Shown piece after piece: positions 9,201 through 61,410 of a DNA stretch of 64,000 bases (the first letter of the stretch is position 1; every line of letters starts with the position of its first letter). Both the position numbers and the translations under genes were made by a program. The stretch comes from Harmothoe impar (lineage: Eukaryota > Annelida > Polychaeta > Phyllodocida > Polynoidae). The DNA is taken from assembly GCA_947462335.1 (NCBI GenBank), contig OX381706.1, positions 14,360,784-14,424,783 on the forward strand. Direction: 5' to 3'. The notes below the pieces were generated by a model that saw nothing but the letters and a program-made list of their open reading frames with translations, was not told the DNA's origin and searched no databases.

Positions 9201-12200
9201 GGCCTAGTCCATTATCTTTTTTGTAAATTGCATTTATTGCATTTATACTAAACCCTTCCAAAGTTCCATTGACTTCTGGACTGAATATTTAAGGATTCTC
9301 TCTTTAATGCTGCAGGATTTGACCGATTCCATCAAATTGTACATGTCCTATACACTGCAATTCTGCATGTCATGTCTGCTTTTAAGCACATCTGATATGA
9401 TTAAAGGAACACTAATTTGGGCAAATGCCAGTGCACTTAAAACCAACCTCAAAGCCATTATGACCTATTCGTGACATTTACATGGCATTACTGAACTAAA
9501 AGCTGCTTAAAGTGTGCCTTTAACAGTGTTTGATGCATCTTGAATTTGCTTAAATGCAAACATTCATGCAGTGACATTCCTTCCCCTCTGACAGCGGCCA
9601 CAGACACGTCGCGGTTCACGCTGACCTGGGTGGTGCTGTTCCTGGCCGCCCACCCTGAGGTGCAGAGCAAGCTGCAGCAGGAGGTGGACAGTGTTGTAGG
9701 TAAGTGGACTTACCAGCAAATCCTGGTCAAACCTGACTAAGGTTTGCCAATTTGGTCATGACCAAACCCAACCAAAGTTGCTGAATTTAGTTCAAATCTT
9801 ACCAAAATTTGCCAATCTAGTCATAACCAAACCGGACTACAGTTTGCCAATTTGGTCATTAGTGGGGGGGCAATTGTCATGTTCACTACATCCCGTGGGA
9901 TTTTCATGGTTATGGTACTTTTTCAAGTGGAATGTATGGATAAAAGGATGCTAAAGAAGATAGGATACCGCTCCATTTTTGATTTTTACTATTTGAGCTA
10001 TTTTTAGGTCAATTAAGTTAATAAGTGTAATTAAAGCTTAGGGGGGCTCTGTCTCTTCAGAAAATAGAGCTATCACTTTTCTAACAATATCTACCCCCCC
10101 AAAATCAACTATAGGGAATCTTGTGGTGAGATTTATTTTTCTGTATTTCTAATGGTTGCCTAGCAACAGGCATATTTTGCTACTTATCTATAGTAACAGA
10201 GCCAAATACAGTTGCATTACGGTTGGATGGTATATGGATAATCTAGCAATGTTCTAAGGCAAATATATCATGACATGTACATCTATATATGTTTTGGCCC
10301 ATATATTGCCTAGCAACAGGCATACTTTGTCATTTTGCATAGCAACAGTACCTCTAACTGTAGATGTACAGAATAAAGTTATTTCTAGCATCTTGTTCAT
10401 TCAATGCTAAGGTAGGTATACCATGACTTCTAGACACATTATATATACATTAGCTCAGTTATTGCCTAGCAACAAGCATCAATGTATTCTTTACCCCTAC
10501 AGACAACACAGATAGCTTACTCTGGGGAGGGAGGCCCAGCAACTTGCAACAGCAACTTGCAATAGCATTGGTTTGCTTGATGAGTTAATTAATGCTAGGC
10601 AATATCTGGGCTAATAGTTACATAATTATGTTCATGACTTTTTTATTTTTGGTTTAAACAAATTTATCTCCTCACGTGCACTATATTCACCTCACATCCA
10701 CTACCTTCTCCTCACACCCACTACCTTCTCCTCACACCCACTACCTTCTCCTCACGTCCACTACATTTTCCTCACGTCCACCTCCTTTCCTGATGTGAGG
10801 AGAAGGTGCTAGTGTGTGTGTGAGAAGGGTTGGACATGACAGAGGGGTTGGACGTGAGGAAGGAGGTTGGATGGTAGGGAGGGTGTTGGATGTAAGGGAG
10901 GGCGTTGGATGTGAGGGAGGGGGTTTGACTTGATGGAAGGGGTTGGACATGCGGGAGGAGGTTGGATGTAAGAGAGGGTGTTGGAAGTGAGGGCATGGGT
11001 TGGACGCGAGGGAGGGGGTTGGATGTGAGGGTGGGGGTTGGACATATAATTTGTAAGAGATAGTATTGGACATGAGGAATTTGAATGAGATAATATGTTA
11101 TGGACATATGAAATGGACGTGAGGGTGGGGGTTGGACATATAATTTGTAAGAGATAGTGTTGGACATGAGGAATTTGAATGAGATAATATGTTATGGACG
11201 TATGAAATAAACATGAGAATGGTGCCTACAAGCCGGGGGCCTGTAGTCAGGGGTGGCCTGAATGCAGGGGGGCCTGTGTTCAGGGGGCCTATGGGATGTA
11301 GGCCTACTGTCAAGAGGGCCTGTATTCCGGATACCTATACACATACTATCCAACTGTAATGCTTAAACATTATATATTAGCCCAGATATTGCCTAGCAAC
11401 AAGCATCCATGTCTTCTTCACCCCTGCAAGCAGGAATCATCTGAACTCATTAAGCAAAATACTGTTATAACAAAATTCTTGGTCTCTAGTTGAACAGAAT
11501 GAAGTCATTATATAGCATCTTGTTCATTCTATGCTAAGGTAGTTATGAATAAATTTGTTCAAACCCAAAAAGAAATGTCATGAACATATATAGCTATTAG
11601 CCCGGATATTGCCTAGCATTAACCCTTTAGGGACCATAGTCGATGCCATGACTGGCCGAGCATTGACTATAGTCGATGCCATGACTATAGTTGATGCCAT
11701 GGCTGGCTGAACATAGACTATAGTCAGTATAACTCTATGGTATTTAGCTATGGCTCAGCCCAGGCTCCTGTTAAAATAGCCCGGCCCCGTCACCAGCAAA
11801 TACTTTTTTTGGTCAGCCCTAAAGGGTTAATTAACTCATCAAACACACCAATGCTATTGCAAGTTGCTGTTGCAAGTTGCTGGGTCTCTCCCTCCAGAGT
11901 GTTGTCTGTAGGGGTAAAGAATACATTGATGCTTGTTTCTAGGCAATAACTGGGCTAATGTATATAGAATGTATTTAGAATGCATGGTATACCTACCTTA
12001 GCATTGAATGAACAAGATGCTAGAAATAACTTTATTCTGTACATCTACAGTTAGAGGTACTGTTGCTATGCAAAAATAACAAAGTATGTCTGTTGCTAGG
12101 CAATACATGGGCCAAAACATCTGTAGATATACATGTTATGATATATTTGCCTTAGAACATTGCAAGATTATCCATATACCATCCAACCGTAATGCAACTG

Positions 12201-15200
12201 TATTTGGCTCTGTTACTATAGATAAGTAGCAAAATATGCCTGTTGCTAGGCAACCATTAGAAATACAGAAAAATAAATCTCACCACAAGATTCCCTATAG
12301 TTGATTTTGGGGGGGTAGGTATTGTTAGAAAAGTGATAGCTCTATTTTCTGAAGAGACAGAGCCCCCCTAAGCTTTAATTACACTAATTAACTTAATTGG
12401 TCTAAAAATAGCTCAAATAGTAAAAATCAAAAATGGAGCGGTATCCTATCTTCTTAAGCACCTTTCAAACTATAGAAATCAGTTGAGAAACTACCATAAC
12501 CACAAAATTCCCACGGAAATACAATTGCCCCCCCACTACATGACCAAACCTCATTTGGATCAGAGTCAGCAAATATGGTCATGACCAAATTGGCCAGCTT
12601 TGGTCAGCTTTGGTAATGACCACCCCGACCTGGGTGATGCTCTTTCTGGCCGCCTACGCCTAAGTTCAGAGCAAGCTGCAGCAGGAGGTGGACAGTGTTG
12701 TAGGTAGGTGGACTTACCAGCAAATCCTGGTCACACTCGGCCATGATTGCCCAACTTTGTTCATGACCAATTTGGTCAAGGCCAAACCTGACTAAAGGCA
12801 CACTCGGCCATGATTGCCCAACTTTGGTCATGACCAATTTAGTCAAGGCCAAACCTAAACCAAAGTTGCTGAATTTAGTCATGACCAAACCTAACCAAAG
12901 TTGCTGAATTTAGTCATGACCAAAACTAACCAAAGTTTGCCAATTTGGTTATGACCAAACCTAACTAAAGGTGACCAATTTGGTTATGGCCAAACCTAAC
13001 TAAAGTTGACCAATTTGGTCATGACCAAACCTGAGTAAAGTTTGCCAATTTGGTCATGACCAAACCTCATTTGGATCAGAGGCAGCTGACCGATTACTGC
13101 GGCCACTGTAGTCCCCAGGACTATGCGCCGCTGCGCGCGTAATTTACGCGTCTGCCACGGGCGTCCTCGCGCCTATGCCCCCCGCCCGCTTCCCCCCCCC
13201 CCCTGGCTACCCGCTGCCCCCCCCCTCTGCACCTTCTGATAGCCTGCAAGGCTGCATGTGGCCCTACCATGTTTATAGTCCTCAGGACTATGTATAAAGT
13301 CCCCAGGACTACAATTGTAGTCCCCAGGACTACGGTTGTAGTCCACAGGACTATGATTGTTGCCCCCAGGACTAAAATTTAGTATAGATCTGCTTGCTGT
13401 CCCCTTTTCATATCATAAAGGGCCCATGCCTCGCCTTGCGAATGAATTCTAAAAGTTCTGAACAATATTGGTGCATAGTCCTGGGGACTACAGGGGAAGT
13501 CCTTAGGACTACAGAGGAAGTCCCTAGGACTACAGGTATTAAACTTGTAGTCCTGGGGACTTCCCCTGTAGTCTCCAGGACTACAGATGAGGTCCTTAAG
13601 ACTACAGGTATTAAACTTGTAGTCCTGTAGACTTCCTCTGTAGTCCCCAGGTCTACAGAGGAGGTCCCTAGGACTACAAGTATTAAATGTGTAGTCCTGG
13701 GGACTAATAAAATGGTAGTCCTGGGGACTATAGGCATAGTGCTGGGGACTACTACAACAAGCTGCATAGTCCTAGGGACTAGAGAAACAGGCCTACATAG
13801 TCCTGGGGACTACAGACATAGTCCTGGGGACTACCAACCCCCAATCTCTAGTCCCTAAGACTATATTTCTATAGTCCCTAGCACTATGTAGGCCTGTCCT
13901 ATCTACCTCTCTGGTAGTAGCAGTCTTGTAAAGTCCCTAGGACTATGTGGGTAGTCCTCAGGACTACGACCGTAGTCCTGAGGACAACACTTATAGTCTT
14001 CAGGACTACAACTGTAGTCCTCAGGACTGTGCAGGCCATGCAGCCTATAGATGCATGTATTTAGAAGGCCTGTGCATTATGGAATGGCCCCCAGGGTCAC
14101 GCATAGACTTAGTCCCTAGGACTAAATGTATAGTCCCTAGGACTACATGTATAATCCTTAGGACTACATGTATAGTCCCTAGGACTACACAATCATGTGG
14201 TCCCCAGGTCTATAAGTTAATATAACTATAGTCCCCAGAACTATGCAATAGCTTTTTGCTTTATGGGCCTAGATAGCCCCCCCCCCCCTTTCCACCCCCC
14301 TCCCCCCCCCCCCTCTGCGCGCCGCAGAAGGCCGCGCGTATTGGACGCGCAGCGGCGCGCGCGGCAGCGTCGTAGTTCTAGGGACCAGCGTGGCCGCAGT
14401 AATCTGTCAGCTGCGGATCAGAGTCAGCAAATATGGTCATGACCAAATTGGCCAGCTTTGGTCAGGTTTGGTCATGACCACACTGACCTGGGTGGTGCTG
14501 TTCCTGGCCGCCCACCCTGAGGTGCAGATTAAGCTGCAGCAGGAGGTGGATAGCGTTGTAGGTAGGTCAACTTAGGGAGTGGTCATTTTTTAACAACAGG
14601 GGGGGGGGGTCGGTGGATTTTCGCGTGAGCGGGTCGAAATCTTTTTGGTCCCCCCACGGGAGGGGTCGAAAACTTTTTGGTCCCCCCCCTCAGGGAAGTT
14701 GAAAATTCAGCGTGGCCGACTCCTTTGAGCTGTAGTATTGCGCAGGCTTTTTCAATAAAAAGGGGTGCAATCATTTTGGTCCCCCCCTCAAGAGGGGTCC
14801 AATTTTTTTTGGTCCCCCCCGATCCACCAACCCCCCCCCCCTGTTGTTAAAAAATGACCACTCCCTTACATTTGCAGTAGACTGATAATCTTGACGCGTA
14901 GTCAGTAGTGGCTATCTAACTAACTATTATTTATAAGCAGATGTATAATGAGCAACAAAATTACTAGTATTGTATTTTATTTAGTTTAAAACACATTGTG
15001 AATATCACATAACTCTGTAATGAAATCTTTATTCCAAGCATAAATAATTAAAACACAGTGATGCATGTGTCAGTGTAATAAAGCATGAGATAATCCTTTC
15101 AATGTAATTAGGAGCAAACATTACCACATTGCCAACTCCCCATTGCTGCATCATTGGTTATTAGTCATATCTTTATATTATCATAGCGCCAAAGTTCAGA

Positions 15201-21109: not shown

Positions 21110-21450
21110 TTTGAGCAAAATCCCTCTAGCCAAGGGTGGTATAAGGGTCTTTTATTCCACCAAAATCCCCCTCACCAATTGTCTTTTCCTCACCAAAATC
21201 ACCCACACCAAGGGTCTAATTTCACCAAAATCTTTTTACCCAAGGGTCTGTTTTCAGCAAAGTCCCTCTACCCAACGTTCTGTTTTCACCAAAATCCCTC
21301 TACCCAAGGTTCTGTTTTCACCAAAATCCCTCTACCCAAGGTTCTGTTTTCACCAAAATCCCTCTACCCAAGGTTCTTTTTTGAGCAACATATTCTAAAA
21401 CATAGGCACTTTTGAGCAAAATCCCTTTACCAAGGGCAAAATCGCTTTAG
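21110..21450. repeat. 32-bp minisatellite, CACCAAAATCCCTCTACCCA unit
   Basis: Six well-aligned 32-bp units run from 21191 to 21382 (CACCAAAATCCCTCTACCCA then AGGTTCTGTTTT), with looser copies on each side (GAGCAAAATCCC...). Two overlapping proline-rich frames arise from the repeat and are not treated as genes. Confidence 0.85.
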
Positions 21451-24693: not shown

Positions 24694-24874
24694 AATATGG
24701 TAATCTGTCCCATGCTTGATAAATTAGGGCCTCCACAAAGTCATGCTTGACACTCTTATAATCATAGGGCCTGAACACGACCAACCTCCCCCAGAGCCAT
24801 ACTTGATGTATAGGGCCACAACAGAGCAATACTTGCTATCTGATATAGGACCTGTGTATGGGCAGTCTGCGTGA

Positions 24875-25054
24875 CAGAGCCATACTTGATATATGAGGTC
24901 CCTACAGAGCCATACTTGATATATGAGGTCCCTACAGAGCCATACTTGATATATGAGGTCCCTACAGAGCCATACTTGATATATGAGGTCCCTACAGAGC
25001 CATACTTGATATATGAGGTCTCTACAGAGCCATACCTGATGTATGAGGTCTCTA
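24875..25054. repeat. 30-bp minisatellite, six units
   Basis: CAGAGCCATACTTGATATAT then GAGGTCCCTA repeated six times, with changes only in the last two units. Looser single units (AGAGCCATACTTGATGTATA) lie upstream at 24790-24870. Because 30 is divisible by three it makes an artefactual 10-residue repeat frame. Confidence 0.9.
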
Positions 25055-25097
25055 CCTATCAGGTCACCATAACCCTTCGGCTTAAGGAGTGTTTTGC

Positions 25098-29364: not shown

Positions 29365-29765
29365 GGGAGGAGTACAGATGTACTTAAGGGCAGTAGGATC
29401 AGGTCAATTGTCTGCTGCTGGGGAGGAGTACAGATGTACTTATGGGCAGTAGGAGCAGGTTAATTGTCTGCCTGCTGGGTAGGAGTACAGATGTACTTAT
29501 GGGCAGTAGGAGCAGGTTAATTGTCTGCTGGGGAGGAGTACAGATGTACTTATGGGCAGTAGGGGCAGGTTAATTGTCTGCTGGGGAGGAGTACAGATGT
29601 ACTTATGGGCAGTAGGAGCAGGTTAATTGTCTGCTGCTGGGGAGGAGTACAGATGTACTTATGGGCAGTAGGGGCAGGTTAATTGTCTGCTGGGGAGGAG
29701 TACAGATGTACTTATGGGCAGTAGGAGCAGGTTAATTGTCTGCTGCTGGGGAGGAGTACAGGTGA
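29365..29765. repeat. 53-57-bp minisatellite, about eight units
   Basis: The unit contains GGGGAGGAGTACAGATGTAC, TTATGGGCAGTAGGAGCAGG and TTAATTGTCTGCTG. Unit lengths alternate through presence or absence of an extra CTG. No unique spacers are present, so this is not a spacer array. Confidence 0.9.
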
Positions 29766-37330: not shown

Positions 37331-38306
37331 TTAGAGTGAAGATTGTCACTTGTGTCAGTCTATGCCATGTTATTGTAACGTAAATACCATATCTACTACA
37401 TGTCTCGTGTGTAGGTTAGCATAGAGTCAGACATGACATTGTACACATGCTCCTATCAGTATTACACCGCCCATACCACCCTCCACGGTAGTAAGCTAGA
37501 CATGCTGCAAAACAATATTTACTCTACCTCATATCGGCCAATGTTTCCTCCCTTTTTCATCAAAGTGTCCCCACTGGTGTCATTCATGGAATCCAGGGGG
37601 CCTACCCTCCCCGTCCATTCATACAATGCACCAATGCAAACAGTGTAAATAAAAATGCAAGAAAAAGCATTGTCATGGCACATACTTATAGTTAATGATT
37701 TATAAAATGGGACATCATGAGTGGCATCATCGTGTTCAGAGGTTGTGGGCTTAGTTTGAATTCACCCTGCGAAAAGAGTTCCAAAAAGGCTGTGATGTAT
37801 TAATGTCAGATGAAAAGAAAATCTAATCTAACGGACAGTAGTTAAATTATTAGATGATGGGGGAGGGGTCAGAGGCTTTCTGTATTTTATATATTAGAAT
37901 AGCTAAATTTACTCTCTATTATCTATCATTTTTGACAATGACACCCACCCCCCTCATCTGGTGATAAATGGCTCGTTCCTCTCAAGAAATTGTTTTTTTT
38001 AAAAAGGTTTTTATTGGGTCTAATAATACATTCAAAATACGTAGTAAATATGAAATGTATTAATAACCAGCATATTGGCGCATTGCCTTCCCTCCGCTGG
38101 CACCCCTGATGAGAACATTATGTACAATTATTTCATAAAAATATACAGTATGACGTGCATTTGTAAAACGTATCATATGGTGTATCTTTGGTTGTATACG
38201 GTCACTTGCATAGTTTACAGGAGTTATATATCAATGATGAGATGAGATGAGTGATGCAATAATATAAGACATTGTCATTGATGAGACCTGTGTAAAAGAA
38301 TAAAAA

Positions 38307-41132
38307 CTACATAAAACATTTAGGATAGTCTTTTTTGATTGCTATTTTAAAAGAGTTGATGTTCTCAATAAGAGTATACGAGGGCTTAAGATTGTTCCAA
38401 GCTATGACGGCTTTATAGTAGGCACTTCGCAGAACAATTGCCTTCAGAGTCAAGGGGGTGATAAGTCTCTTCCCTGTATGCCTCCTCGTAGGAATACTCC
38501 TTTTATCAATTAAATTATCTCTTTTCGACAATTGATAAGCATAAAACAATAGATGGATTCCTCTTCTATCAGATAACTTTTTACATTTTGTGAGCTCATG
38601 CAGTCCGTCTGTAGTATGAAGGTTTTTTTTCTCAACCTTAACCTTGTATATAATCCTTAGGCATTTATTTTGCATGTACTGTAGTTCAAGGTTCTCTCCC
38701 TTGTTACCCCTATCCCAAATGTAATCAACATAATCGAAAGATGGAAGGACCATGGTTTTATATATACATGTGGCAGTCTCGGTCTCAGAGTAGTGCCTAA
38801 TTCTGGCTAATTGACCTATCTTATACCTAGTGTTATTAACAGTTATTCTTCTATGTTGTACAAATTTCATATCTACATCAAGATTCAAGCCCAGATAGGG
38901 AAAGCAATAGACTCTTTCTAAAAGGGCTCCATTCAAGGCTAAAACAGAATTATCATTTTTTTCACCATTAAAAAGCATCCACTTGGTTTTGCTCTCATTG
39001 ATAGTTAGACTATTTTGTACACACCAGTTGGATATATTCGAGAGAGCTCTATCCATATCATTTTTATCAGTACAAGTGATGACTGCATCGTCAGCGTACA
39101 GTGTAATATTAAAAAGGCCACATTTTCCTAGTGAATTAATATAAATAGAGAATAATACTGGACCCATTACGGATCCTTGAGGAACCCCAAATACAACGTC
39201 ATTATAGCCAGATAAGTGATTGTTAGCTAGAGTACATTGCTTACGTGAGGTTAGGTAGCTCTCAAACCAGCGGCAGGTGTTTTTGTTAAGTCCTAAAGTG
39301 GATAATTTTTTTAGCATAATAAAGTGAGAAACTGTATCGAAAGCCTTTTTATAATCTAAATATAGGCAGTAAGAGGGTTTGTTATTAATAGTATTATTTA
39401 AGACATTTTCAATGTGTTCACAAATAGCCGTCTGGGTTGAGTGTGCCTTACGATAGCCATGCTGCGTCGGGCATAACAAATTATTATTTTCCATGTAAAA
39501 TTGCAATCTATTACACACAATTTTTTCTAAAATCTTTCCTGGTAAGGGTAGAAGGCTAATGGGTCTTAAGTCATTTACACTTTTACTATTAGGTTTTTTT
39601 GGAAGGGGGATTACTGTGGCAGCCTTCCACTCCTCCGGGAATGCATGTTTCTCAAGACAGCGGTTATATAAACTTAACATAACATCAGCAATGGTCATGA
39701 AAGCGTCCTTTAATACATAAGTCTTCATGTGCTTTATGGAAGAGGGCTTTTTAATCTTAATATTTCTAAATAGTTTCATAAGGTCGCAATGGCTAACAGG
39801 TTCAATGAGGCTGGTGTCTACTACTGGAGTACCGTATGGCTGGTTTTCATTATTTACACAAGGTGGCAGCATAGGCAGTGCATCGGCAAGGTTCTTACCT
39901 ACATTCGCAAAGAACTCATTGATAAATTGTGAACATTCTTCCTGTGGAATTAATTGACCCGTGATACTGTTCTTTAACTTAATCAGAGTAGACATTGTTT
40001 TTACAGGCAATAATTTTCTGATACCTTCCCAGAACTTAGATGGATCATCTTTTCTATATATTAAGAGCTTACCAACTTCAGTTTTCCTACTATTAAATAT
40101 AAGTGTTTCCACCTGATTTCTGTAGAAGTTAGCAATATTCCAACAATCTTCGGTATTTACACGTCTAGCAGTTCTATACAAATTATCCCTTTCCCTCATG
40201 GCATCAATAATGGGTGGTGTTAACCATTCAGGGGTGTATTCAGGAATGACCAGCTTACGTATAGGGCACATAACATCAAGACATTTTTTCAAATTAAACA
40301 AGATTCTTAGCCACATTTCATTAGGGTCATGTAAGGCTACGATGTCATTCCAGTTAATATGCAATAAACTGTTTTTGTACGTCAAGAAGTCATACCTTCT
40401 ATAGGACCGTGCTCTTATACATTTCTTAACTACTTTAGTGCGTTCACATTTTAATATCATGTAAATGGGCGTGTGATCAGAAATATGAAAGTTAATTAGA
40501 CCTGATTCTGCTACGTTATGTACATTGGTGTAAATATGATCAAGGAGCGTACCAGAGGTAGGGCGTGTTGGCTCTTGTATAAGTTGAAACAACTCACAAT
40601 CTGTACAAAATTTACCAATGCCTGCTTCCTCTACATGTTTATCATTAAAGAGATCAACATTGAAATCTCCCAACATAATAATTTTTCTATTTTTAGAGAC
40701 AGGGTTTTTCAATTCAGTCAATTTCTTATAAATTGCATCCTTATCAACGTCATCATCAGGAGGCCTATAACACACATATATTTTAAACTTGATCACACCA
40801 ACTTGGACATCTACACATAAAATTTCATAATCTTTAGTAATAGCTGAGGCTTCCATGTCAGCGGTTGCCAGGTACGTGTCCCTCATATATAACATTAATC
40901 CGCCAGCTTTTTTGTTCCTGTTTGGATATCTATCTAGTCTTAAGTACTGATAGCCAGGTACATACATATCAATGTCTCTTTTATGTGGACCCAGCCACGA
41001 TTCAACAATGCCTGTGAAATCTGAACTGCTAATTATCTTAAAAGCATTCACTCTTTTATTAAATACAGACCTAGCATTAATGCTAACAAAGGATAAACCC
41101 TTTGTTTCTTTTATATGATTAATAGTAACCAT
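38307..41132 (-). CDS. LINE ORF2: AP-type endonuclease plus reverse transcriptase, 941 aa
   Basis: Nicks target DNA and primes reverse transcription from the nick. N-terminal endonuclease/exonuclease/phosphatase domain (about 12-225): SINAR (N19), VESW (E44), YRPP, GDFN (155-158) and SDH (D219-H220), i.e. the catalytic set is present. Reverse transcriptase (about 490-760): LRPISLLP, GYRKAHST, LDYKKAFDTV, FGVPQGSVMGP (from G649) and the catalytic YADD (679-682). The C-terminal part ends NSFKIAIKKD, as in the CR1 group. No RNase H was seen. An in-frame TAG lies three codons before the ATG at 41132, so the start is fixed. Length and organisation are typical of CR1/L2/jockey-type ORF2. The frame has no stop or shift, so activity in trans is possible. 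Clade assignment below the superfamily is uncertain. Confidence 0.95.
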   Translation of the reverse strand: MVTINHIKETKGLSFVSINARSVFNKRVNAFKIISSSDFTGIVESWLGPHKRDIDMYVPGYQYLRLDRYPNRNKKAGGLMLYMRDTYLATADMEASAITKDYEILCVDVQVGVIKFKIYVCYRPPDDDVDKDAIYKKLTELKNPVSKNRKIIMLGDFNVDLFNDKHVEEAGIGKFCTDCELFQLIQEPTRPTSGTLLDHIYTNVHNVAESGLINFHISDHTPIYMILKCERTKVVKKCIRARSYRRYDFLTYKNSLLHINWNDIVALHDPNEMWLRILFNLKKCLDVMCPIRKLVIPEYTPEWLTPPIIDAMRERDNLYRTARRVNTEDCWNIANFYRNQVETLIFNSRKTEVGKLLIYRKDDPSKFWEGIRKLLPVKTMSTLIKLKNSITGQLIPQEECSQFINEFFANVGKNLADALPMLPPCVNNENQPYGTPVVDTSLIEPVSHCDLMKLFRNIKIKKPSSIKHMKTYVLKDAFMTIADVMLSLYNRCLEKHAFPEEWKAATVIPLPKKPNSKSVNDLRPISLLPLPGKILEKIVCNRLQFYMENNNLLCPTQHGYRKAHSTQTAICEHIENVLNNTINNKPSYCLYLDYKKAFDTVSHFIMLKKLSTLGLNKNTCRWFESYLTSRKQCTLANNHLSGYNDVVFGVPQGSVMGPVLFSIYINSLGKCGLFNITLYADDAVITCTDKNDMDRALSNISNWCVQNSLTINESKTKWMLFNGEKNDNSVLALNGALLERVYCFPYLGLNLDVDMKFVQHRRITVNNTRYKIGQLARIRHYSETETATCIYKTMVLPSFDYVDYIWDRGNKGENLELQYMQNKCLRIIYKVKVEKKNLHTTDGLHELTKCKKLSDRRGIHLLFYAYQLSKRDNLIDKRSIPTRRHTGKRLITPLTLKAIVLRSAYYKAVIAWNNLKPSYTLIENINSFKIAIKKDYPKCFM

Positions 41133-41768
41133 GATGGACTAACCACTGTGTGTGGTACTGGATGAGGTGATACAAGATATGGCTGATACCTAGTATGTAT
41201 GAACAAATCTGGAACTCCATGTGTGCGGCTTCTTAGTAGACGGTCGGCTGATCGCCCTACTACCGGTATTATATGGTACAATTTATAATGGTGTGTATAG
41301 AACGGTACAGAAAGTGTAGAGAAAAGCATGATATATTCACAAACATGAGGGGTAATATAATATAATTACGGGGGGGGGTGGGGTTAATACACTATATGTC
41401 GTCGGAATTCCTATATATATTTACATTCAAGTGACACAGTGTTGTTAACTATACCGTAAATACTAGTCTAGACCATTTGGTCAGTGTGTTACTGGGTCAT
41501 GATTACATCATACTAGGCCAGGTTGCCCGCTTTTTGGCTATACTTATATTGGTCAGTTGTTGAGCCTTATGTAACACAGATGTGAAATGATTGCCATTAA
41601 CTGGCTATTGAGAGCATACCGTAGGGGGACTGTTAGGCTTTACAGCTAGCATGAAAAAAGACCATGGGTCTGTTTAGTATACACAATACTTATACAGAGT
41701 AGTATAGTCGTACACTGATGAAACTTAAGGAAGGAAAAGACATATATGTTTGTTACCTAACCCTAAAG

Positions 41769-43502
41769 CTATTTCTTTGAGCCTTTTGGGGTTTTGTGCA
41801 TTATATTGAAGAGAGTGTCTCTCATGCTAATCGAGTCCTTTGACTGAGTCTTTTTAGTCTTGTTTGGCTTGACTTTTGTGGAGCTGATCGGGGTGGAGAT
41901 ACTCGAGGTGGCCGTTGTCACCATGGTAGTAGCATGAGTGCTGGTTGGGGGTCTTGGGGTTGGTACACTCTGTTCCGTTGTGAAGACGAGCTGGATCAGG
42001 GCCAGCTTGGTCTGCGTTGGTGTAGATACTACAGGTGAGGTGAGGGTACTGGTGGGCGTGGTCGGTGCGGCGACGTGTGTGACCACTGCTATGGTTGTAG
42101 CAGTTATCACTACTGGAGTGGCGGCAGCAGTCGTCTGGGGCTGGTCATTAAGGCTCACATCAGCATTGGCGGGCACTCCTGCAGCAGGGGTGACTGCTAC
42201 TGTGATGGCTGCTACTGTCTCAGTCGCTGGCGAGCTGGTGTGAGCCGTTGGCACTGGAGGTGGATATAGTTCAGCTAGCCTTTTCCTGACCTTCATGAGT
42301 ACCTCTCCTCCACGGTTCTTTCCAGAATGGCTTCCATTTTCCAGAGCTTTGCTCCTCAGACCTACTCCCACGCCCCAGTGTGGACAGGAAGTGGCTTCCA
42401 AGAGCTTCCGGTCCTGTGTCTCAAGTATGTATTGGCGGAGATGTTCATGTTGTTGGTATTTATACATGTTAATTTCCTCCAGGTGCTTCTCGTCCTCATG
42501 TTTCCAGGCTGGGCAGTCTATAGACTTTGCTATTTTCTGTGCTGGCATGGGATCATAACAGTCCTTTATACGATCTGCCTTTATAACGTTCCCAGCAAAT
42601 ATAGCTTTCCTGTAGGCAAAGAGGTGTTCCACAGAGGCCCAGTCCCTACCATCTGCCGTTATCTTACATGGGTAAAAGTTAGACAATGGCGCGTGCTCAC
42701 TTTGGTAGGCGACATATTCGTCAGTGATGATTGTCTTAGTGTTAGAGAGACGTATTTTCTGTGGCAGATCATTAATTGCATGATGAGGGTAGTAGCGTCC
42801 ATTGTACAGAAGACCCCTGCCTCTTGGTTTCACCGAAATACCTGCTTCAAAAGCCATTTTTGCTATAGCATTGATATCATTCTTCTGTTTGCGCACTTCA
42901 TTATTGGAGTCTTCAGTGATGAAGGCATACCTATACCTGGTGTTTCTCAAGTTACCTTTTAGAGAGAGGATTTTGTCTCTTTATGTGGCCTTTGTCATGA
43001 CAGCCATTATGGACCGATCCTCATTCATAGGTGACCCCTGCCTATAGACATAGTCAATCTCAAATTCATCAAAGGTTGGGTCTAGGGCAGTAAAAATATC
43101 AAGCGCAATTTGTCTTGTGTTTTCCCCTCTGACAAACTTTACACCGTCAATCAAGAGATTTTTCCTCCTTAGCGTATGGTCAATCACGTTGATCATAGAG
43201 AAATGTTCACGAATGTCTGCAGAGTTGACCCTTGCTTGACGCTCATTTTCTTCTAGTTTTTATTTTAGAGCAGCAATTTCCTTATTTTTAGAGATATTCT
43301 GACCCTGGAGGGTGCGCACATCTTCTTGAGAATACTCGAGAGATTCTTTCAATTCACTGTACAAAGTTTCTAGTTTGTCTTTTTCTGTCATGAGATACTC
43401 AACAGTTATGCCCAAACGAGTCTTACCATCTGATCTGGTTTTAGGTTGGGACTCCTCCAGTGCCTTTATGGCTTCTTCCTTTGTAGGAGCTGCCCTTGCC
43501 AT
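41769..43502 (-). pseudogene. LINE ORF1: coiled coil, RRM-like, C-terminal domain and NADAR domain; two in-frame TAA
   Basis: One frame of 577 codons from ATG 43502 to the stop at 41769-41771, broken only by TAA at codon 81 (43260-43262) and codon 174 (42981-42983). Before the first stop: a heptad-like Glu/Lys/Leu coiled coil (about 35-80). Between stops: an RRM-like RNA-binding segment (LRRKNLLIDGV, about 105-115). After the second stop the RRM and an L1-ORF1-style C-terminal domain continue (about 175-250). Codons 263-412 are a NADAR domain: SEHAPLSNFYP, SVEHLFAYRKA, HWGVGVG and NRGGEVLMKVR. A Pro/Thr/Ala-rich tail follows. ORF1 proteins coat LINE RNA. NADAR proteins act on N-glycosidic bonds of riboflavin intermediates or ADP-ribosylated guanine; the role here is unknown. 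Either stop could be a C-to-T change from CAA. Confidence 0.88.
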
Positions 43503-44656
43503 ATTGACTCAGTCTAGTAGTGGCAGTGCGCCGGTGGTCAATAGGTAAATAGAGGTGGTCAGACGAGTGGTGCAGTGTCGGGTTCAAAATGGCCACAGGA
43601 GTGACCACGGTCCCAGACGTTTTGAAAAAAACATATACTAGACACTGGCTTTGAGATGTATGTGAATAATTTTGCGCTTCTTACAGTCACAAAACCTTTA
43701 TACTCCTCCTATGCCTAGCTGGGGACTGCACTCATTCTGTGAGATGTAGAAAAAGGTCTTGTAGTAGGGCGGGCGCCTCGGTGCGTGTTTACTCGGCGAC
43801 CGTCATACTGCAAGGTTTGTTTTGAACCTTGGCAGTCATGGCAGCCTCAAATATATATATTCTTGCACATCAGGTATTTCCAAACATCCTGACTCTTTTA
43901 CACCCAGGGTCGTGTCCCCCACAGGTGGCACTACACTAAATAGTGGCGTAGGGGCGCCTTTGCAGTCACGCGCAGTATGGTGTTGTCCAAACAATTATTG
44001 GTCTAAATTTGACTGTGCACCATGGTATGTAAAGGCATCAAATTAATCCTTAGAGTGCTTACTATAGTGTTGATTCCAGTGGTATTTAAGATGGGTATTT
44101 GCAAAAATGAATCATGGAAATATTCCAAATCTGTCATTACAGTACTGGGGAAGTTGGGTATGGCACATCAAAAGGCCTGTACAAAGAAATTAAGTCTCTA
44201 TGTACCATTCATCATGTACTCTCACGGGCCTAAATATTTGGGAAAATGTAGATCTATTAGAAATTAGCAGTGGCTAAGCCCAACCGACAGCACGAGTATT
44301 TTGTTTTAGCACATCAAAAGGCCTGTACAAAGAAATTAAATGCACTATGTACCATAGAGGGGCGGGGGGGGCTATTTCATGTACTCTCATGGGCCTAATT
44401 ATTTGGGAAAATGTAGATTTATAAGAAATTAGCAGTGAGTGGCTAAGCCCAAATGACAGCAGGGATATTTTATTCTGGCACATATGCTGTATAGGCCTAT
44501 AGTGCAAAAACATTTAGTGTAGTCAAACAAATGCCTGCCCACATCTCGAGCCGCCTGCATGACGCGACTGGGTGGTTCTGGAAACAAACACCAGGTGGTG
44601 CACGTGTCGGCGGTAGGCACAGCGCTATGTTATATGTTGTGCTTTTTTATTTGTAA

Positions 44657-45594: not shown

Positions 45595-45984
45595 CTGCTT
45601 GCCACCTCTGGTCTCCACCTCCCTTCCCTGTCTCTGCCTCCCTTCTTGTCTGTCTCCCTCCCTGTCTCTACTTTGCTGTCTCTCTCCCTCCCTGTGTGTG
45701 TCTCTCTGTCTCCCTCTCCCCCTCCCTGTCTGCCTCCCTCCCTCCCTCCTTTCCTCCTTTCCTCCCTACTCCCTCGTTCCCTTGCTCCCTTGCTCGCTCG
45801 CTTCCTCCATTGCTCACTCCCTCCCTCCCTGTCTTCCTTCCTTCCTTCCTTCCTTCTTTCCTTCCTTCCTTCCTTCCTTCCTTCCTTCCTTCCTTCCTTC
45901 CTTCCTTCCTTCCTTCCTTCCTTCCTTCCTTCCTTCCTTCCTTCCTTCCTTCCCTCCTTCCTTCCCTCCTTCCTTCCCTCCTTC

Positions 45985-46018
<34 letters not shown>

Positions 46019-46170
46019 CCCTTCCCTCCCTCCCTCCCTCCCTCCCTCCCTTCCTCCCTCCCTCCCTCCCTCGTTACCCCCTCCCTCCCTCAGTCCCTCC
46101 CTCCCTCCCTCCCTCCCTCCCTCCCTCCCTCCCTCCCTCCCTCCCTCCCTCCTTCTCTCCCTCCCTCCTT
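45595..46170. repeat. Polypyrimidine tract, (TTCC)n, (TTTC)n and (CCCT)n
   Basis: CCTT repeats (45835-45985), TTTC (45985-46018) and CCCT (46020-46155), preceded by mixed CT-rich sequence from 45595. Three overlapping frames of 252-265 codons encode only Leu, Pro, Ser and Phe strings and are artefacts of the repeat. Confidence 0.95.
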
Positions 46171-46497
46171 GCCTCCCCCACCCTCCATTCCTCCTTGCCT
46201 CCCTGCCAGCTGTTTGCCTTTCTCCCTCGATCCTATTACGCTATTTTCCCCTTCCCTGGCGCCCCTCCCCCCTATAATTCGTTAGTTTGCCTCTTTAATA
46301 CCAGCGTCCCAGCCATCATCTTCACAGTATCTCCCTTCCGGCCTCCACCCCAGGAATCTAATCCCTGTTCTGCTATGCCTACCTCCCTATTACCACCCAA
46401 ATCAAACATGCCATAGGTATGCAGAATGCCCCGTGACAAATCAGAGAAAAATAAAAATAATCAAGGACAGATATTGGGGGAATGTGGCTTGATATTA

Positions 46498-48358: not shown

Positions 48359-51300
48359 TCACTGGGGCTTGGGGGCATAGATGCAGTCTGTCTCATGGTA
48401 GGTCTTGATGGGCTCGTTGAGGGCGGAGTCAAAGCCGTTCTGGGTGAGATAGGTGAGGACATCGTTCTCGAATTTCTCCCTGAACCTTTCCACGTCGCGG
48501 GTCAGAACAAAGAGACCGAGGCGGTAGGGGTCGGTCACAATGGCGTACTCATACAGGCCTGTCTCTCCGAAGGTTTTTGGGCCCAGTTTGATGATCCAGT
48601 CTGAAAAGGTAATCAGTGGTTTAGAGAAAATGGTGGAGATAGTAGTGAGGGAAAAGGGAGGAATGGTACGAGGTTCTCCCACCAATCACAATTTAAACTG
48701 GCTATAGTCTTCATGATTCACTCCATATATATTTCATAAATGGTAGTGTAAATGTGTCCTCCTATGTGAAAAGGCCTAAACTGAAACATCCCGTACATTC
48801 ATTCATTCAAAATTCTTTGTTTAAACCCAATTACGAGCTCAAACTGAGAACAAATAACTCGATTTTAAGTACAAAGACTCCACGTTTATCCAGATGCTAA
48901 AACTCAAAAATTATATAACTCAAAAATGCACCAATGTCAGGGAGGAATATTCACACATCACGATGACCAATAGCATTGTGCATTGAAGCCCTCAGGGAGT
49001 GGTCTTTTTTTAAACAACAGGGGAGGTTGGTGGATTTTCGTGTGAGTTGGTCTAAATATTAGCCCACCAGGTGAGTTGTAATTAAGCGCGGCCAACCGCT
49101 TTGAGCTATAGTAAAGGGTAAGCTTTGAGGCTAAAAAGAGGTGAAATTTTTTTGGTCCCTCCCTCAAGGGGTCCACATGTTTTTGGCGCACCCCCCAATC
49201 CACCAATCCCCTTAAAGTTAGTACATCCGATGTCTGGGACCAAAAAAATAAATTCCCCTAAAAATGAGTCAGAATGTTCATAAATAACACAATTACTCCA
49301 TTCTTCTTTACTCCCTTAGAATTTGCTCTAATTTGATTTCATTGCTCAAGATATGGTAATCTTAAAATAAAATCGTGCACGATCTTATTCCCCCCATTGA
49401 AAATACACAGTAAAAGACCATGGTTGGACCCCATGGAACCCACTTTTCGAGCTGATACTGGCCATGGATGCAATTATAATGTCCCCCAACCCACAAATAA
49501 TATACTTGTATACTACATGGAAAGTCTTAATGTAGAATTTAAGATTTGGTAAAAATCGGATATACCCACTTTAATGGGTTAAACAATGTAAATGTACTTA
49601 CATGGAGCCATGTGCCACGACCCACCACTGAGGTCAACCTTCAGCTTGCCGGGCTCACTGGTAGTGAACGCATACCCTCTGATGTCCTTCAATTCACCAG
49701 TGGGAATCTTAATTCTGTTAGCGTTGTACACCGTCAGTACAGAGCTGTTGTACACGCCATCTGGAAATTGGAAAAAGTTAAACAAACTTTTCACAATGAT
49801 GATATGGGTAGATTAACCATGAGTCAGTCACATACCCTGAAGTTCAAGTTTCAAGTTTTAAGAATTTATTCACGTAATCATTGCAATCTGTCCATATTTT
49901 ACAATCATTCATGTAAAATGCATACATTATATTAGATATAATATATTATACCTTTATACTATAATTTTCAATAATATCACATTATAATTCACATTATAAA
50001 CTTTGATACATTTTGAAAATAGCCCTCGACACGTCATTAATCCCTTATGACACATTATAATGGTGAATGGGCTGCTGCTTGGTACGGTACACCAATTTTC
50101 GTTAGCCACCTTTATTTTACACATTCATTTGTTATAAAAACATAATTAAATTCTATGTATATATTTTGAGACTTTGTCTTTTTGTACAATATATTAATAT
50201 GCTCCTACAGATACAGATATTTCTGATTACTCCTGTGTGATAAGACTTGTACTAGTGATATATTTGGGTAAAAATACACTTAAACTTTACCATCTTGTAT
50301 CATAGTTGGGCGGATATAGGTTAAAAAGAAAGACAAATACTCATAGAAATTGAAAGACTTTGGTGATTTGTTCAGTTCTGACCAACCTGACATTACCAAC
50401 TAAGGGAATGTTCATTTATTAGTTACAGGGGGGGCGTAAAAATTTCCGACACCTCCCGAGGGGGGGTGTAAAAACTTCTGACCCCTCTTGAGGGGGGGCC
50501 CAAAAATTTAAGCCCCTTTTTATCAAAAAAGCCAGCACGTTACTATAGTTCAGGGGTGGGGCGAAAATTTTTCGCCGCCTTCAGCGAGGGGGGCCCAAAA
50601 ATTGAAGCCCCTTTTTAGCAAAAGAGCCAGCGCCTTACTATAGTTCAAAGGGTGGGGGCGAAAATTTGTCGCCGCCTTCAGCGAGGGGGGCCGCGAAACA
50701 TTCCACGTGCTCTCGAGGGGAGGGGGGAAATTTCGTCCCTCCGCGCGAAATCACACCACTTCCCCCCTGTAAAATAATATATCAACACTCCCTAACGTAG
50801 GTTGGTCGTATAGGAAGCCAGAAAAGACTCACCAGATTAATCACTACATCGACTGAGTTGTTAGCCACGCCCAGAAAATTATGAGGGTCAGCTGGACGCT
50901 AGCTATGTCACAAAAAGGACTCTCATACAAGGGTCAAGTATATTAGTGAGTGTCAGGCATTGCTGAACTCATCCAAAGCGCTTGGGGGTCTGGCCATGCT
51001 GAATCCTCATGCCAGAATCTGGCAAATTCCGCCTCTAAGAGTCCAGCATTGTCTAACACTGGCATGAGGGTCCAGCATGGCATGACTCTCAATCAATTTT
51101 GTGATTGTCTATTATTGAAGGTACAGCATAGCCAGACCCCCCATAACATGACCCTTGACCAATCTAGTATACTACAGCAGTGTGTGACCTTTGTAGGAGG
51201 GTGTTTTTGGCGACATGGACTGATGCTCATGTTTGCCTCAGTGCAGTATTGAATAAGGCCAGAATACCAGTGTAGTTCATACTCACAGTCAGCAGTGACG

Positions 51301-54202: not shown

Positions 54203-54671
54203 CTATAGCTTGGGCATGGGAGCGTAAATGCAGTCCTTCTCATGGTAGGTCTTGATTGGCTCATTGAGGACGGAGTCGAAGCCGTTCTGGTTGAGATAGG
54301 TGAGGACATCCTTCTCAAACTTCTCCCTGAAAATTGCCACATCACGAGTCAGAACGAACAGAGCGACACGGTCTGGGCCAGTCACAATGGCATACTCGTA
54401 CAGGCCTTTCTCTCCGAAGGTTTTTGGGCCCAGTTTGACGATCCAGTCTGAAAATGTGGTTAGTGGTTTAAAAATGGTGGAGACAGTAGTGGTGGAAGGG
54501 GGGGGGGCAAGGCCCTCCCACCAATCACAATTCAAGCTGTGATGCCAAATCTTCTACTAACTATAATTATACATGTGTATACATATAAAAATATACATGT
54601 GTATACATATATGAATATAGATGTACATATATATATATATACATATAGATAGGTGGATAGATAGATAGATG

Positions 54672-54747
<76 letters not shown>

Positions 54748-61244: not shown

Positions 61245-61410
61245 AACTACTGGGTTCTGGGAACCGTACCCTCAGGGAATCACAACTTCTAGAAACTGAA
61301 TCTAGAGGGAACCAGCTCTGTGGGAACCTACAGGGTTCTGGGAACTGGAGGGAACCAGCTCTTCGGGAACCTACAGGGTTCTAGGAACTGGAGGGAATCA
61401 GCTCTGTGAT
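61245..61410. repeat. ~55-bp minisatellite, GGGAACCTACAGGGTTCTGG unit
   Basis: Two full units and partial ones of GGGAACCTACAGGGTTCTGG, GAACTGGAGGGAACCAGCTC, TGT/TTC. GAACC/GGTTC words let single units pair. Confidence 0.8.

Follow-up and report, generated by a model that had tools for sequence, protein, structure and literature searches.

The question raised by this locus is whether a LINE retrotransposon carries a NADAR domain as an inherited part of its ORF1 protein, and what such a domain might do there. A preliminary description of the window (the whole stretch of 64,000 nucleotides that was analysed) had proposed a continuous frame in the ORF1 position of a LINE, running from coiled-coil, RRM-like, and C-terminal (CTD) domains to a NADAR domain at codons 263-412 and a Pro/Thr tail. 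The coordinates given for the domain (42267-42716) are right; the strand, which had been left out, is the minus strand, the plus-strand reading being full of stops. Continuity of the frame did not hold, since TAA occurs at codons 81 and 174, so that the window ORF1 is broken and is open for its last 402 codons, from 42977 downward. This open piece matches the Pfam NADAR profile PF08719 with 92.3 bits (E=5.3e-26; cut-off, 35.1 bits) over its residues 92-234, equal to codons 267-409, and its matches in the PDB include YbiA (2b3w, E=2.5e-9) and the NADAR protein 8bau (E=5.6e-6). The four motifs quoted for the domain, SEHAPLSNFYP, SVEHLFAYRKA, HWGVGVG, and NRGGEVLMKVR, are all present in the translation, and the two upstream pieces of ORF1 gave nothing above the Pfam cut-offs. 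The ORF1 position was also borne out, the frame lying upstream of an ORF2 with endonuclease (Exo_endo_phos_2, E=3.9e-7) and reverse transcriptase (RVT_1, E=8.7e-37) domains. A NADAR domain is fused into the ORF1 protein of this LINE (Table 1).

Table 1. Parts of the NADAR-bearing LINE, in positions of the window
Feature	Position	Strand	Basis or remark
Whole LINE element	37990..43812	-	~5.8 kb; ends shared with fetched copies
5' untranslated region	43503..43812	-	
ORF1, broken in the window copy by two in-frame TAA	41769..43502	-	
ORF1 coiled-coil region, codons 1-99	43206..43502	-	L1 ORF1p profile match; helix in P0001 model
In-frame stop TAA, ORF1 codon 81	43260..43262	-	
ORF1 RRM region, codons 100-198	42909..43205	-	Profile matches, P0001 model, Foldseek
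In-frame stop TAA, ORF1 codon 174	42981..42983	-	
ORF1 CTD-like region, codons 199-262	42717..42908	-	Position and secondary structure of P0001 model; Foldseek to 2ldy
NADAR domain, codons 263-412	42267..42716	-	Pfam PF08719; active-site residues kept
Pro/Thr-rich tail of ORF1	41769..42266	-	36% identity to P0001 with indels; P0001 pLDDT<50 there
Inter-ORF spacer, 636 bp	41133..41768	-	
Non-coding block before ORF2, conserved among near copies	41184..41268	-	
Intact ORF2 of 941 aa with endonuclease and reverse transcriptase	38307..41132	-	RVT_1, Exo_endo_phos_2
3' untranslated region, AATAAA and short A-tail	37990..38306	-	

The extent of the element was set by homology with copies fetched from the same genome, whose 5' limit lies at 43808-43812 in several copies and whose 3' limit lies at ~37982-37995 in most. 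The 5' start is conserved among the compared copies, as is the 3' end, which reads AATAAAAACCTT followed by A's, and the window copy is full length, without 5' truncation. Reverse transcriptase (RT) and apurinic-type endonuclease (EN) in ORF2, an A-rich 3' end, many dispersed copies, and the presence of 5'-truncated copies are all as expected of a LINE. A target-site duplication was sought in 14 elements (the ends of L016, L020, and L026 being roughly placed), and none was convincing; the flanks at the element ends share 15 bp in L025 and 5-9 bp in each of the other 13.

The Rfam search of the window gave no match at gathering scores, and for structured RNA in the conserved block of the spacer RNAalifold found weak pairing with 26 rows (-7.0) and none with all 31. 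This block, at 41184-41268 (-), is partly kept in divergent copies, as ATTCGATCACCC..ATACTTGGTATCA in L029 and in similar form in L031, and might serve, past the long spacer, as a signal for the transcription or translation of ORF2. Elsewhere in the window, a frame at 48359-48685 (-) matches the lipocalin domain PF24976 with 27 bits, at the cut-off, and is probably an exon of a host gene, and tandem repeat arrays of several periods are found at 10667-13705, 21143-21382, 24874-25055, 29365-29761, 45710-46204, 50493-50692, 54645-54747, and 61305-61408.

The domain order of ORF1 was explored with relatives from protein searches. A first search yielded one, P0001, which has 571 aa and is 56% identical to the window ORF1; a two-row profile search, which scored the 8000 candidates sharing most words, added P0036 and P0037 (31% and 29%), both with NADAR. 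Pfam NADAR is found in all 12 ORF1s of the alignment made from nine genomic copies and these three proteins (alignment A3), and profiles of the ORF1s match NADAR 8bau, YbiA, and human L1 ORF1p. In two such profile searches, the match to human L1 ORF1p covers the coiled coil together with the RRM (E=2.5e-5 and E=1.8e-5); Pfam Transposase_22 gave no match to the ORF1s at E<=0.01. An AlphaFold model of P0001, built from a six-row alignment in which three rows are pieces of the window ORF1, has a mean pLDDT of 68.3 and a pTM of 0.41, a pTM so low that the model speaks for the single domains rather than for their placing relative to one another. The model displays a long helix at residues 25-111, an RRM-like part, a CTD-like part, and a high-confidence NADAR part, with a pLDDT of 84-97 in ten-residue blocks over 261-410; residues 422-571 stay below 50, and the ORF1 tail is accordingly predicted to have low order.

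The structural comparison that the preliminary description had proposed was carried out with this model. Foldseek against the PDB placed the solved NADARs first, 8bau (E=2.7e-9, TMt 0.72) and 2b3w (E=3.8e-7, TMt 0.73), followed by chains of the human L1 ORF1p trimer (best E=1.6e-4, TMt 0.38), which overlay the whole chain poorly (TMt 0.32-0.38, rmsd 10-15). The RRM-CTD structure of L1 ORF1p, 2ldy, was matched at E=1.5e-3, and regulatory domains of aspartate kinases appear below L1 ORF1p, from E=4.6e-3. By the profiles, the model, and Foldseek, the coiled coil, RRM, and CTD that precede NADAR are those of a Type II ORF1.

With ORF2 as the query, the protein search found P0002, which is 61% identical over the whole length. 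P0001 and P0002 each list one contig, the longest being 5515 bp for both, and they probably sit on the same one. The identity of the window to P0001 is 29% in the coiled coil, 37% in the RRM, 57% in the CTD, 59% in NADAR (89 of 150 residues), and 36% in the tail, and its identity to P0002 is 66% in EN and 64% in RT; the conservation of NADAR thus exceeds that of the RRM and comes close to that of the ORF2 enzymes. Neither the ORF1 alignment nor P0002 gave any match in scans of viral contigs.

Copies in the host genome were sought in its assembly (1.51 Gb, 736 contigs) with the 150-aa window NADAR as the query; all 150 scored places (of 3299 candidates) matched at E<=3.4e-43, an abundance far beyond chance. 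From the 149 other places, 20 near copies (L009-L028) and 6 divergent ones (L029-L034) were fetched. In each of the 26, which were chosen by NADAR similarity and so favour conserved NADARs, NADAR is followed by ORF2 sequence in the same orientation. EN is present in 24; the exceptions are L027, a fragment rearranged so that the end of RT adjoins NADAR, and L030, which retains the later ORF2 portion. All four ORF1 parts, coiled coil, RRM, CTD, and NADAR, were recognised in 17 of the 20 near copies and in 4 of the 6 divergent ones. In the remaining two divergent copies, the coiled-coil match alone is missing; L017, L020, and L027 gave no coiled-coil or RRM match. Several copies (L012, L013, L016, L024, L026, L028, and L034) contain insertions, frameshifts, or deletions. 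Judged by frame length in 27 copies (the 26 fetched and the window), ORF1 is open in 16, the window copy not among them, ORF2 in 13, and both in 8. Pairs of copies at 97-99% identity indicate recent activity of the LINE.

The reverse search, starting from the endonuclease, scored 150 of 6850 candidates, and the first 100 were classed by position. At least 47 of these 100 EN places, the window included, are preceded on their own strand by a NADAR among the matches listed, as are at least 19 of the 29 nearest. Six of the remaining 10 near-family cases (L035-L040) were opened, two of them 99% identical to the window in EN. In all six the element homology stops inside the spacer, ~260, 332, 334, 395, 401, and 401 nt before ORF2; the 4.4 kb upstream showed no ORF1 similarity, and the only frames of at least 200 aa there were two repetitive ones in L039. 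With homology ending in the spacer, these six are best read as 5'-truncated copies rather than as cases of domain loss. Their starts cluster at ~395-401 nt in three, 332-334 in two, and 260 in one, corresponding to window positions ~41390-41535 (-); with n=6, so few start distances hint at preferred RT stops or at shorter ORF2-only RNAs. Among four divergent cases with no listed NADAR, homology breaks off within the ORF1 tail in one; the other three have no ORF1 similarity in 1.2 kb, which would fit truncation as well as a longer spacer or an ORF1 of another kind.

A dN/dS comparison across copies, another of the checks first proposed, gave values of ~0.05-0.1 for NADAR, like those of EN and RT. 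By Nei-Gojobori counts, restricted for NADAR to 16 rows with full-length ungapped matches, the median pairwise dN/dS is 0.047 for NADAR, 0.034 for EN, 0.045 for RRM, and 0.073 for RT, with dS saturated in most pairs. In pairs with dS<1, the pN/pS is 0.075 for NADAR (4 pairs), 0.123 for EN (7 pairs), and 0.122 for RT (5 pairs), and recent pairs that are independent of one another give 0.10 (NADAR, 3 pairs) and 0.15 (RT, 2 pairs). The pair L013/L014 supplies most of the NADAR changes among these few unsaturated pairs, and the pair L017/L020 has three nonsynonymous changes and one synonymous change in NADAR. Moreover, distances between copies in NADAR follow those in ORF2, with Mantel correlations of r=0.944 with RT (25 loci) and r=0.974 with EN (26 loci), reached in 0 of 2000 permutations. 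Within the near family alone, the NADAR distances correlate at r=0.855 with RT and 0.731 with EN, and at 0.453 with the neighbouring RRM and 0.400 with the CTD. NADAR is under purifying selection, is co-inherited with ORF2, and is common to the subfamilies.

These observations bear on the possibility that ORF1 and ORF2 come from different elements brought together by nested insertion, a reading that the long spacer of 636 bp might invite. The same order and strand in every fetched copy, the common ends, the correlated distances, and the probable shared contig of P0001 and P0002 leave it next to no chance, and it was rejected on the order, ends, and distances of the copies.

The genome also appears to hold NADAR genes of other kinds. 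With the Pfam NADAR profile, all 150 scored places (of 3484 candidates) pass the cut-off, and the best four matches, whose frames measure 183-268 aa, resemble stand-alone genes of the host; one that was read, L046, is a 183-aa NADAR frame. Three probable stand-alone host NADAR genes lie within 27 kb on one contig (G000:C21:30057793-30084570). Such genes could have been the source of a one-off capture or 3' fusion by a single copy, with NADAR as a roleless passenger, which is the case that the preliminary description had named as damaging to its proposal. It is contradicted by the 150 of 150 scored places, the purifying selection, and the co-inheritance with ORF2, and L046 aligned with six of the LINE ORF1 queries (L030-L034 and P0037) at only 24-31%, and gave no match to the window NADAR at E<=1e-3. 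One-off capture is very improbable and was rejected on the copies found.

The profile matches listed also include many NADAR frames that reach 750-1331 aa. Another long frame, at L045 3-2036 (+), reported as 1153 aa, has a C-terminal NADAR that is 34% identical to that of the window over 155 columns and a stretch that is RRM-like by eye, with no profile match; it is possibly a second ORF1-like architecture, and several families of NADAR transposons may coexist in this genome.

The active site was examined by alignment with the NADAR of P. nicotianae, 8bau, in whose description the distal ribose and the phosphates are surrounded by E43, K50, and E125, together with W133 (PMC11543638); the offset of 2 in the chain numbering was inferred from D130/W133. 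The equivalents are E, K, E, and W in the window and in all 26 fetched copies, and all four belong to the 33 positions (of 150) that do not vary over 28 rows. Glu at the E125 position, along with the E43 and K50 equivalents, is the signature of the YbiA subfamily. The BC4488 or DarT-linked NADARs have Asp instead of this Glu. In E. coli C7 NADAR, the working Asp lies two residues before the aligned Glu; Leu is found there in the window, the one copy compared for this position. P0037 keeps all four residues, and P0036, which is NADAR-ORF1-like and comes from a contig of 7.5 Mb, has no lysine at the K50 position and is perhaps a degenerate or repurposed copy. Around the site, Asn of the LSNF motif is lost in L027 and L028 and Arg of KNRGG in L034. 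Because known ADP-ribose-handling residues are conserved, the ADP-ribose-removing activity that had been suggested for the ORF1 NADAR is plausible. The domain is very probably a selected and, by its residues, catalytically competent-looking part of ORF1p.

The fold could alternatively serve ORF1p as a binding or structural part, reading RNA, ADP-ribose, or PARP-modified protein with no need of catalysis. The esterase of other LINE ORF1s is thought, in the part of the source covered, to serve transcript binding, stabilisation, and chaperoning (PMC4120745), and the missing lysine of P0036 would fit such a role. The invariance of the four active-site positions among copies speaks against it, and we regard it as quite unlikely.

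In the mechanism that we propose, ORF1p would combine an L1-type RNA-binding module (coiled coil, RRM, and CTD) with a YbiA-type NADAR and a C-terminal tail. By coating the element RNA, it would place a de-ADP-ribosylating hydrolase on the RNP, where NADAR would free guanines in the element's RNA, in new cDNA, or in the target DNA of their ADP-ribose. The template would then stay readable when postulated host or foreign ADP-ribosyltransferases modify nucleic acid. In the preliminary description, such a countering of host ADP-ribosylation would occur during integration, an opponent and a timing that are conjectural. In the portions available of the sources, tested NADARs, YbiA among them, undo the ADP-ribosylation of guanosine in RNA, and NADARs are inactive on phosphate ends (PMC11833690), and a guanine N2 ADP-ribosylation activity is reported in clams, with pierisins in pierid butterflies (PMC11209040). 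Guanine as the target, drawn by analogy with these enzymes, is tentative and falls just short of an even chance; the explanation as a whole, a NADAR-bearing ORF1p acting as guanine de-ADP-ribosylase on the RNP, might equally be right or wrong.

NADAR might instead act near the RNP on small molecules, such as free ADP-ribose derivatives, cyclic ADPr, or N-glycosidic NAD or riboflavin intermediates, rather than on nucleic acid. NADARs are reported to act on riboflavin intermediates, soluble ADPr derivatives have been proposed as substrates in viruses in the part covered of PMC9503650, and the residues observed here do not separate the two kinds of substrate. Fusion to an RNA-binding module favours a nucleic-acid substrate, as does the activity of tested NADARs on guanosine-ADPr RNA (PMC11833690, as far as covered), which makes the small-molecule reading unlikely.

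What NADARs do physiologically in eukaryotes, also in animals, is described as unclear in the part available of PMC11125620. The strong purifying selection on NADAR in ORF1p suggests that RNA or DNA ADP-ribosylation limits retrotransposition in this host, and the LINE makes this limit testable, through a defined protein whose catalytic residues are clear and with retrotransposition as the read-out. The domain is in addition an added enzyme among the accessory domains of LINE ORF1 proteins. The widest version, in which a LINE lineage outside L1/Tx1 fixed a catalytic guanine de-ADP-ribosylase in its RNP and more than one family of NADAR transposons multiplied in the genome, is doubtful. If true, it would imply that invertebrates defend themselves against transposons by ADP-ribosylating nucleic acid, a defence of which we know no earlier description and to which NADAR would be the antidote.

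The class of the LINE was assessed by comparing ORF2 with human L1 ORF2p, to which the window protein aligns with at most 50.6 bits and at residues 395-756 only. The control P0035, which we take to be L1-type from its PF13966 domain, reaches 314 bits from EN onward. Since the window ORF2, unlike P0035, is not alignable to L1 ORF2p from EN to the C-terminus, it is on sequence grounds outside the L1/Tx1 superfamily, a placement made with one control and without a Tx1 reference.

Known systems are compared here as described in the portions covered of the cited papers. Type II ORF1s of the L1, CR1, L2, and R1 clades (PMC4120745; human L1 ORF1p 2yko/2ykp) have the same N-terminal domain order and fold, to which the window LINE adds a C-terminal NADAR and a Pro/Thr tail. 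Type IV ORF1s of CR1 and L2 likewise carry an enzyme-like domain, but it is an esterase and not NADAR (PMC4120745). The YbiA-type NADAR enzymes (2b3w; 8bau, PMC11543638) share the fold and the Glu-Lys-Glu set; they are stand-alone, whereas the window NADAR is fused to an RNA-binding module. NADAR also occurs in invertebrate RNA viruses (PMC9503650), likewise RNA-replicating genetic parasites, where it lies in polyproteins and not in a LINE ORF1.

Among retrotransposons, Ectocarpus Gypsy elements carry NADAR too, but these are LTR elements of a brown alga with the domain at the N-terminus of Pol instead of in ORF1 (PMC12477816). The parts covered of a study of gastropod LINEs report no NADAR in them (PMC11203168), and in a literature search that left subscription papers largely outside, PMC12477816 was the only source found to join NADAR to retrotransposons. 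In that 2025 paper, a Repbase query found NADAR (YbiA family) in ORF1 of several Tx1 LINEs of Crassostrea gigas; its role was left open, with RNA processing suggested. The oyster elements are alike in having NADAR in a LINE ORF1 protein and are set apart by their description as Tx1, in the L1 superfamily, whereas the window ORF2 is not L1/Tx1-like. Exchange of ORF1 between LINE lineages has been argued for (PMC4120745), and such exchange could have spread a NADAR-bearing ORF1. NADAR in LINE ORF1 is already known as a kind, and the aspects of the window element that are new follow from its different LINE type and from the added copy, selection, and active-site evidence.
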